From Aliarcobacter sp. (GTDB taxonomy: Bacteria; Campylobacterota; Campylobacteria; Campylobacterales; Arcobacteraceae): a stretch of 64,000 bases of DNA. Both the position numbers and the translations under genes were made by a program. The notes under the pieces were generated by a model. It worked only from the letters and a program-made list of their open reading frames with translations. It had not been told where the DNA came from and did no database searches. The DNA lies in the NCBI GenBank assembly GCA_028689025.1, contig JAQTXA010000010.1, forward strand, positions 1 to 64,000, written 5' to 3'. Shown here piece by piece: positions 15,836 through 17,292 of the stretch (position 1 is its first letter; the number at the start of each line of letters is the position of its first letter).

Positions 15836-16291
15836 CTAAGCGCTCTTTACTTTTTCATCAATCAAATTTCTAACACAAATATCAATCATCTCAAAAACTT
15901 TATCAAAACCCTCAAAACCATCAAAAAAATATGGGTCAGGAACACACTCTCCATTAAAACCAAAATCACCAAGTTTTATAGGATTTTTACAACCTAAGTT
16001 TTTTAGATTTGAAATATTGCTATCATCAAGTCCAACTATTAAATCAAAGGTTTTAAAATCTGATTTTTTAACTTGTTGCGCTTTCTGATTTGAAATATCA
16101 ACACCATTTAATTTTCCAACTTTAATAGAGTTTTCACAAGGAGCTTCTCCAATATGCCAATGTCCAGTTCCTGCACTTTCAATCACTAAATTTAAATTTT
16201 TTTCTTTTATATACTGCTTTGCTATTCCCTCAGCAAGTGGCGAACGGCAAATATTTCCTAAACACACAAATAAAATTGACTTTACTTCCAT
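15836..16291 (-). CDS. Low-molecular-weight protein-tyrosine phosphatase
   Basis: A 151-residue cytosolic phosphatase of normal family length. The active-site loop VCLGNICRSP (C10, R16) sits at the N-terminus and the general-acid aspartate is in VPDPYFFDGFEGF. Bacterial members act on tyrosine kinases of capsule synthesis or on small phosphoesters, but no kinase or capsule gene is visible here, so the substrate is open. The start ATG overlaps the stop of the small zinc-binding gene by one base, which indicates co-translation. Confidence 0.9.
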   Translation of the reverse strand: MEVKSILFVCLGNICRSPLAEGIAKQYIKEKNLNLVIESAGTGHWHIGEAPCENSIKVGKLNGVDISNQKAQQVKKSDFKTFDLIVGLDDSNISNLKNLGCKNPIKLGDFGFNGECVPDPYFFDGFEGFDKVFEMIDICVRNLIDEKVKSA

Positions 16292-16485
16292 TAAAATTCA
16301 TTTCCTTCAATACTATTATAAGAATAAGTTTTTATCTCGCCATCTTCAACGATATAAGAGATTTCTATTGGTCTACAGCACACTTCACAATCATCAACAA
16401 CACTTTCATGGCCATAAATACCTGTGTCTAAAAGAATCGAAATTGCTTGTAAACAATATGGACATTGTATATGTATCTCTTCCAT
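16291..16485 (-). CDS. CPXCG-type cysteine-rich zinc-binding protein
   Basis: A 64-residue protein with CPYC and CEVCC pairs that should bind one zinc ion, followed by an acidic stretch. The layout I-x-CPYC-x(24)-C-x-x-C-C-RPIE matches the small CPXCG/CPXC family found in many Proteobacteria, function unknown. The gene precedes the phosphatase with a one-base overlap and has AAAGGAT about 7 bases ahead of its ATG. Confidence 0.75.
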   Translation of the reverse strand: MEEIHIQCPYCLQAISILLDTGIYGHESVVDDCEVCCRPIEISYIVEDGEIKTYSYNSIEGNEF

Positions 16486-16578
16486 TTTTTATCCTTTTTG
16501 TTAGTTTATCAAAACATTAATTAATCATTTAAAACTATAAAATATGTTACTATTTCAAAAATTTCAAAAGGATAAATC

Positions 16579-16740
16579 ATAGCAACTTGTAAAAATTGTA
16601 AAAATGAAATCGAACCAAAAAAAAGACAATGTCCCTACTGTGGAATTTTAAATCCAACAGTAACCCTAAAAGATGTATTTGTAGGCATTGCTTTTGTTTT
16701 ATTTGTTATGAGTATAGTAACTTATTTTGTAAATAACTAA
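16579..16740 (+). CDS. Zinc-ribbon membrane microprotein with apparent AUA start
   Basis: A 53-residue product: a zinc ribbon with CKNC and CPYCG pairs in the first 22 residues, then one membrane helix (about 34-50, VGIAFVLFVMSIVTYF). The frame has no ATG, GTG or TTG at its 5' end. A TAA stop lies at 16573-16575 and only ATC and ATA codons come before the GCA-ACT-TGT run. Starting at the ATA (16579) gives a product that would read M-A-T-C-K-N-C, and AAAAGGAT sits about 6 bases upstream. The frame ends one base before the rhomboid gene's stop. Unusual initiation or a single-base change of ATG to ATA are both possible. Confidence 0.6.
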   Translation: MATCKNCKNEIEPKKRQCPYCGILNPTVTLKDVFVGIAFVLFVMSIVTYFVNN

Positions 16741-17292
16741 TTATCTTTTTGTAATAATTGCGTACAAAAATCCAATTCCTAAACCAATAAAGTGAGAATA
16801 CCAAGCGATTGGTAAACCAATAATTAGTGGTGCAACTGAGATTAATAAAATCCAAGTTATTATTCCACCTCTTTGGGCTTTATCATAATAAGCAACAAAT
16901 CCAAGCAAGGCACAAATAGCTCCTGAAGCTCCAACTAAATTTACATTATGGTCTAAATAATATATATATGCAAATGATAAAATTGAAGTTAATAATCCAG
17001 TTATTAAATATAAAGCAACAAATTTTTTAGCACCAATAAATCTTTCAATCAAATTTCCAAACTGCCAAAGAACAAACATATTCATTCCAAGATGGGCAAT
17101 TCCACCATGGGCAAAAATAGTACTTAGTGGTTGCCACCAAAATCCATAGACTAAAAAATATAGATTTAATCCAAATAATAAACCACCATTAGTTATGTTA
17201 ATTTGAATAATATACATTAAAACTGTAATTGTTATTAGAACATTTGTGGCAGTGAAATCTTTTCTACTAAAGTTTTTTAACATTGTTTTCAT
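16741..17292 (-). CDS. Rhomboid-family intramembrane serine protease
   Basis: Cleaves membrane proteins within the lipid bilayer. The 183-residue protein has six predicted helices, the catalytic serine in GASGAICALLGF (S123), the partner histidine in YSHFIGLGIGF (H167) and the H-x-x-x-N helix GIAHLGMNMFVLW. It is a compact bacterial rhomboid with no extra cytosolic domain. The ATG overlaps the end of the upstream unknown gene by 26 bases, so the two are probably co-expressed. A second in-frame ATG lies three codons in. Confidence 0.88.
   Translation of the reverse strand: MKTMLKNFSRKDFTATNVLITITVLMYIIQINITNGGLLFGLNLYFLVYGFWWQPLSTIFAHGGIAHLGMNMFVLWQFGNLIERFIGAKKFVALYLITGLLTSILSFAYIYYLDHNVNLVGASGAICALLGFVAYYDKAQRGGIITWILLISVAPLIIGLPIAWYSHFIGLGIGFLYAIITKR

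Follow-up and report, generated by a model that had tools for sequence, protein, structure and literature searches.

Can a start codon that should initiate translation poorly be kept in the same gene across many species? This question is raised by a short frame in the stretch of Aliarcobacter sp. DNA analyzed here (the window, 64,000 nt, contig JAQTXA010000010.1). The frame opens with ATA, closes with TAA at 16738–16740 and has the product IATCKNCKNEIEPKKRQCPYCGILNPTVTLKDVFVGIAFVLFVMSIVTYFVNN. The source genome (G000) measures 2.7 Mb, in 32 contigs. A preliminary description, made from the sequence, saw here either a zinc-ribbon microprotein gene with a rare and weak AUA start, or a gene nearly silenced by a recent change from ATG to ATA. 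The comparisons presented below indicate that the microprotein is encoded by a real, conserved gene, whose sub-optimal start codon is probably kept by selection. We use AUH for AUA, AUC or AUU, and canonical for ATG, GTG or TTG. The features discussed are collected in Table 1.

Table 1 Features of the microprotein locus (window positions) and further AUH genes of the source genome (G000, with contig and positions).
Feature	Position	Strand	Basis or remark
Possible -10 element TACTAT, own promoter of the microprotein gene	16548..16553	+	speculative
Shine-Dalgarno AAAGGA	16567..16572	+	6 nt ahead of ATA; invariant in 12 genus copies
In-frame stop TAA	16573..16575	+	sequence
Zinc-ribbon membrane microprotein gene	16579..16740	+	53 codons plus TAA; pN/pS 0.12
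Start codon ATA	16579..16581	+	ATA/ATC/ATT kept in 55/65 family copies
Zinc ribbon, codons of Cys4, Cys7, Cys18, Cys21	16588..16641	+	29-row alignment; Pfam sub-threshold
Membrane helix, residues 30–51	16666..16731	+	AlphaFold2 model; hydrophobic sequence
Rhomboid-family gene	16741..17292	-	Pfam PF01694, E 1.4e-22; tail to tail with the microprotein gene
Radical-SAM/SPASM gene (L094)	G000:C25:21615-22487	+	ATA start; leader near-identical to that of the microprotein gene
DUF234 gene (L279)	G000:C16:114282-115160	+	ATT start
PnuC-like transporter gene (L257)	G000:C16:291109-291732	+	ATA start
TetR-family regulator (L162/L163)	G000:C16:179768-180361	-	ATT start in two compared genomes

The signals around the start were as described before. 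ATA opens the frame, a ribosome-binding sequence is in place, and a stop codon six bases upstream bars an earlier start. Due to this in-frame TAA, no upstream in-frame start is possible for the microprotein gene. Scanning of the frame for ATG, GTG and TTG found none before an ATG at codon 44. The gene has an AUH codon behind a Shine-Dalgarno sequence, and no usable canonical start. An AUA start agrees with all of the observations.

Of the 12 genus copies, 11 carried a TACTAT in the 45 nt ahead of the start. Taken as a -10 element, a speculative assignment, it would give a leader of ~20–25 nt, which would offer little space for any other control of the gene. A consensus promoter scan of the locus had no match on the plus strand, and scanning it against Rfam and for tRNAs gave no matches. 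The microprotein gene is alone on the plus strand, with a cysteine-rich CPXCG gene as divergent 5' neighbor. On the other side, a convergent rhomboid gene was found in 52 of 65 microprotein loci, in 48 of them with a gap within ~50 nt. The rhomboid gene is a neighbor and no part of the start-codon feature.

The microprotein combines a CxxC-x10-CxxC zinc ribbon with one membrane helix, and this part of the preliminary description held. The four cysteines (Cys4, Cys7, Cys18 and Cys21), in two CxxC knuckles, were invariant in 29 aligned copies, its own included. The AlphaFold2 model from this alignment (mean pLDDT 81, pTM 0.43) had one long helix at residues 30–51, with a mean pLDDT of 89 in residues 31–40 and of 94 in residues 41–50. 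None of the 12 families listed by the Pfam scan reached its cut-off. The microprotein has in common with DZR (PF12773) and Zn_Ribbon_1 (PF13240) an N-terminal CxxC...CPxCG ribbon, but its scores, 19.6 bits (cut-off 27.3) and 18.3 bits (cut-off 25), respectively, were under both curated cut-offs. The NCBIfam search gave no model over its cut-off, and the sequence search of the PDB gave no related solved structure. Judging from the charges, the ribbon would lie in the cytoplasm. Our guess is that the microprotein could be a zinc ribbon with an accessory or regulatory role, tethered to the membrane and required at a low dose.

Coding constraint was assessed on the 12 genus copies. The frame had a pN/pS of 0.12 and 36 of its 50 variable sites were third codon positions, indicating a coding frame under purifying selection. 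Over the 30 nt preceding the start, the sole long invariant run was AAAGGA, at positions -12 to -7. The 6 nt spacer following it was constant in length and variable in sequence.

The start codon itself was then compared between relatives. Within the genus, the microprotein gene was found in 12 of 31 genomes, with ATA in ten copies and ATC in two (own included). A relative beginning M-A-T-C-K-N-C, against which the ATA had been set in the preliminary description, was thus not found in the genus. The other 19 genomes, three of them under 90% complete, gave no match to the gene. When 104 family genomes were searched with a profile, 65 were found to carry the gene. An AUH start, conserved between species, was present in 55 of these copies (39 ATA, 11 ATC and 5 ATT), the other ten having ATG (7), TTG (1), an ambiguous start (ATA or TTG, 1) or a broken gene (1), with the canonical-start rows assigned by eye. 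Five weak second matches in already counted genomes (E 3.7e-7 to 0.008) are left out of this count. Two explanations had been offered in which the ATA is an accident: the near-silencing of the gene by a recent ATG-to-ATA change, and a sequencing error where other strains have ATG. Because the start is ATA, ATC or ATT in 55 of 65 copies from many genera, and purifying selection acts on the frame, both are excluded, their joint probability being close to nil.

The copies with ATG belonged to three genera (g7, g8 and g12) and the one with TTG to a fourth (g13), therefore the weak start is not needed everywhere. In clade g9, the start mostly lay three codons further upstream of the ribbon, here too as ATA, ATC or ATT and at the same Shine-Dalgarno distance. 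Weak relatives outside the family (L226 and L231 left out) had ATG or an apparent TTG, except for one genome from another family of the order (f7; G203, locus L218), whose copy was very similar and started with ATC, from either horizontal transfer or contamination. Scanning our collection for the microprotein gave 24 loci: 20 from Campylobacterota, one from a “bacterium”, and three Firmicutes-type ribbons. The carriers included Aliarcobacter sp., Arcobacter caeni, Poseidonibacter and Malaciobacter species and Campylobacterota metagenome bins. In two near relatives (L311 in G023 and L313 in G022), the gene was cleanly absent between the CPXCG and rhomboid genes. Absences within the genus indicate that the gene is dispensable.

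The conserved codon could also be something other than a start, namely an internal isoleucine of a longer product made by a frameshift or from a hidden start. Its column does behave like an isoleucine codon, with A, C or T as third base, and 13 of 14 isoleucine columns of the radical-SAM gene introduced below were also without ATG. A longer product would need space, and the frames around the 65 matches are 53–86 codons long, so that there is little room upstream. It would also need an entry point, but in 50 of the 55 AUH copies the interval from the stop to the AUH codon had no canonical codon, and in the other five the in-frame canonical codon upstream was never in the Shine-Dalgarno position. 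Further, the upstream sequence varies freely save for AAAGGA and the Shine-Dalgarno spacing is fixed, the distance from AAGG to the AUH codon being 7 bases in 54 of the 55 copies and 8 in one. A short upstream ATG frame is in phase with the microprotein gene in some species only. We consider an internal isoleucine very improbable. Two specific candidates were rejected as well. The ATG frame at 16544–16546, joined by a frameshift, has a frame relation to the microprotein gene that differs between species. The ATC at 16576 was dismissed as a start because, unlike the AUH codon, the codon at this position is free to vary (AAA, TCC, CTC, ACC and others).

A DNA match of 70 bases elsewhere in the source genome was evaluated as a paralog of the microprotein gene and rejected, the match being the similar leader of a radical-SAM/SPASM gene that starts with ATA. 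The leader motif TTTCAAAAGGANNNNNNATA was also rejected as a specific signal. It had three exact matches in the source genome, and because one of them (C7:3858) runs into a stop after two codons, it is no dedicated signal. The radical-SAM gene was present in 93 of the 104 family genomes, and its start was read in 70 of the 93. AUH was found at 53 of these 70 loci (30 ATA, 20 ATT and 3 ATC). At another 16, a canonical codon occupied the aligned position or lay next to it (g6, g7, g8, g11 and g12), and one was masked. The Shine-Dalgarno sequence was weaker in many relatives, and two AUH rows also carried an upstream canonical codon. On a quick protein tree of this gene, its start changed at least 14 times (four states), 12 changes being among A, C and T as third base and 2 between AUH and canonical. 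The start of the microprotein gene, placed on the same tree (48 genomes), changed 8 times, at least 6 of them among A, C and T within the AUH rows.

Further AUH genes were searched by comparing 300 kb of the source genome with 400 kb of a syntenic relative (202 homologous pairs). The strict filter asked for a Shine-Dalgarno sequence and a conserved non-canonical codon in both genomes, with canonical codons barred in both, upstream and within nine codons downstream. Three of the 202 genes passed, encoding a DUF234 protein, a TetR regulator and a PnuC-like transporter. All had AUH at 6–7 nt, and the identical three were recovered in a rerun (201 pairs). This amounts to 1.5% of the pairs relying on a conserved AUH start (95% interval 0.3–4.3%). 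Survey matches in other codon classes were neighboring or internal codons of the same genes. Two other designs were discarded: a single-genome AUH survey was swamped by antisense frames, its second version yielding candidates only, and a looser two-genome filter, in whose place the strict one was used, had internal codons mixed in.

When the filter was applied to two control genomes of another family (288 pairs), it retained ten genes, of which one was an AUH gene, the one for DUF234. In the other nine, the codon was no start codon, or was an AUH at an incorrect spacing. We read them as false positives whose true start lies further downstream. The difference between 3/201 and 1/288 was not significant (Fisher p 0.31), and therefore we do not claim an enrichment of AUH starts in Arcobacteraceae over other families.

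The DUF234 gene gave 31 matches in the genus, and the start was read at 30 loci. Half of these (15) had AUH (9 ATT, 3 ATC and 3 ATA), and the remaining 15 formed a second clade, all with ATG. In 30 genomes chosen from across the order, 25 carried the gene, at 26 loci. AUH was present at 22 of the 26, in families f1 (15/15 loci), f3, f6 and f10. From the rest, the second copy in G292 had ATG, G108 had apparently ATG, G109 apparently TTG, and the start of the G106 locus was not assigned, which makes two or three canonical loci in other families. Five of the 22 AUH loci had an in-frame canonical codon upstream, lacking a Shine-Dalgarno sequence. The occurrence in several families suggests that the AUH start of DUF234 is older than the family, unless the gene moved between families. 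The PnuC-like gene had AUH at 20 of 22 genus loci and TTG at 2, and in two distant AUH rows there was also a canonical codon, four codons before the AUH. The AUH arrangement of the microprotein gene is thus shared by no fewer than three further conserved genes of the lineage (radical-SAM/SPASM, DUF234 and PnuC-like), and for the TetR gene it was seen in two genomes.

With several unrelated genes using AUH, and one of them (DUF234) spanning families of the order, it could be that the apparatus of this order treats AUH as a good start, through an altered IF3, an altered ribosome or an extra initiator tRNA, and that expression is not weak at all. If AUH equaled AUG, it would be odd that only 3 of 202 pairs rely on it. 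The source genome had three initiator-type tRNAs (C1:A72, GGG/CCC anticodon stem), all with the anticodon CAU. The 38 tRNA matches were all assigned an identity, and we noticed in them no initiator-type tRNA with a different anticodon, in a set that is incomplete in that Ile GAU, Ala and Val tRNAs were absent from it. Ordinary fMet-tRNA would therefore need to read AUH with a third-base mismatch. We hold an altered apparatus to be improbable. A tRNA array in the source genome (L398, G000:C25, about 15981–17073) carried five CAU tRNAs, three of the initiator type. A tRNA-Sec was located at L166, 19177–19272, and the source genome may make selenoproteins.

For a weak start kept by selection, the course of initiation would be as follows. 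The strong Shine-Dalgarno sequence would recruit the 30S subunit to the microprotein mRNA, and ordinary fMet-tRNA(CAU) would pair with the first two bases of AUH. The proofreading of the third position by IF3 would let pass only a fraction of the initiation complexes. The outcome would be a small amount of membrane-anchored zinc-ribbon protein, with its ribbon in the cytoplasm and fMet as first residue. The weak start would keep synthesis low and open to IF3 discrimination. Relaxed discrimination by IF3 would increase the output, and an AUG would increase it several-fold, a rise that selection would avoid.

In vitro, weak third-base pairs are reported to be excluded by IF3 (PMC10158994). In Staphylococcus aureus reporters, the AUU/AUA starts of cvfC1, ccpN and citZ reached ~10% of the AUG output when the medium was poor (PMC13009471). 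Because of these two results, a low output is expected for the microprotein gene. The weak, factor-dependent initiation at AUA proposed in the preliminary description is plausible, and we infer both low output and dependence on IF3. In each of the 19 genus genomes in which its start was read, the infC gene began with TTG (placed by eye, with the conserved N-terminus as guide). An autoregulation of IF3 via a weak infC start was rejected on this ground, and there is therefore no IF3 self-control through an AUH start here.

A weak start could also be tolerated, and not selected. If the dose hardly matters, any AUN would work, and an A/T mutation bias would keep G away. A third-base G was indeed rare in the AUH genes (3–9%), so that its absence from the start column is partly mutational, and 19 of 31 genus genomes gave no match to the microprotein gene itself. 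We used fourfold-degenerate columns as a control for such drift, since G would be expected in the start column at the silent-site rate if any AUN served. G-free columns were uncommon in the two widest samples, with 5/34 for radical-SAM (51 of the 53 AUH sequences) and 1/6 for the microprotein (55 sequences). They were frequent for PnuC-like (16/25, 20 sequences) and DUF234 (45/57, 15 near sequences), both of which are weak samples. The product for four G-free start columns by drift was 0.012, a value that is only moderately small, with columns treated as independent and the start columns picked for having no G in the query genome. The control would favor avoidance of AUG, which is supported but not proven against drift. 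Two further results speak against drift: 199 of 202 gene pairs failed the AUH filter, and DUF234 has AUH in several families versus ATG in 15/15 of one clade, which resembles two regimes more than drift. Drift is in our view unlikely, and a weak start kept by selection remains the preferred explanation.

One lineage has several AUH genes in dozens of species, with a third base that wanders between A, C and T, and entire clades lack a G there. A tentative extension, which we consider possible but doubtful, is that Campylobacterota hold an old, dispersed set of AUH genes (~1.5% of the sampled genes), forming a translation-initiation-fidelity regulon. If this were true, its members would be the zinc-ribbon microprotein, radical-SAM/SPASM, DUF234, PnuC-like and TetR genes, and their synthesis would be set jointly by the level or activity of IF3 and the supply of initiator tRNA. 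Common gene finders allow only ATG, GTG and TTG as starts, and by these rules the regulon would have been overlooked. Under such calling, we predict that microproteins of this kind are missed and longer genes truncated. As there are several AUH genes and an ATG clade of DUF234, it is testable whether the weak start is selected and whether the genes respond jointly to fidelity.

To our knowledge, conserved AUU or AUA starts are known for only a handful of bacterial genes. In Escherichia coli, the weak AUU start of infC and pcnB limits expression, and IF3 discriminates against AUU. The E. coli infC is autoregulated by IF3, unlike the infC of this genus with its TTG start. No AUH starts were described for Arcobacter or Campylobacterota in the titles and abstract openings of the open-access papers searched. 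A term search in the main text of a Campylobacter jejuni Ribo-seq paper gave no AUA, AUU or AUC (PMC11955535).

The closest parallels are from S. aureus (PMC13009471). There, cvfC1 (AUU), ccpN, infC and citZ (AUA) have a strong Shine-Dalgarno sequence followed by AUU or AUA, as found here, and infC differs by its AUA from the TTG of this genus. The non-AUG start of cvfC1 and ccpN is conserved, as in the microprotein gene. The cvfC1 product is a putative zinc finger of 61 aa and the microprotein is a small zinc ribbon too, while ccpN is a regulator, like the TetR gene (PMC13009471). S. aureus belongs to another phylum, and its genes are others than those described here. Its starts were shown by initiation profiling, and those of cvfC1, ccpN and citZ also in reporters (PMC13009471). 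The AUH starts described here thus belong to a known type, the conserved weak starts, but occur in a new lineage and in unusual company, with unusually clear comparative evidence.
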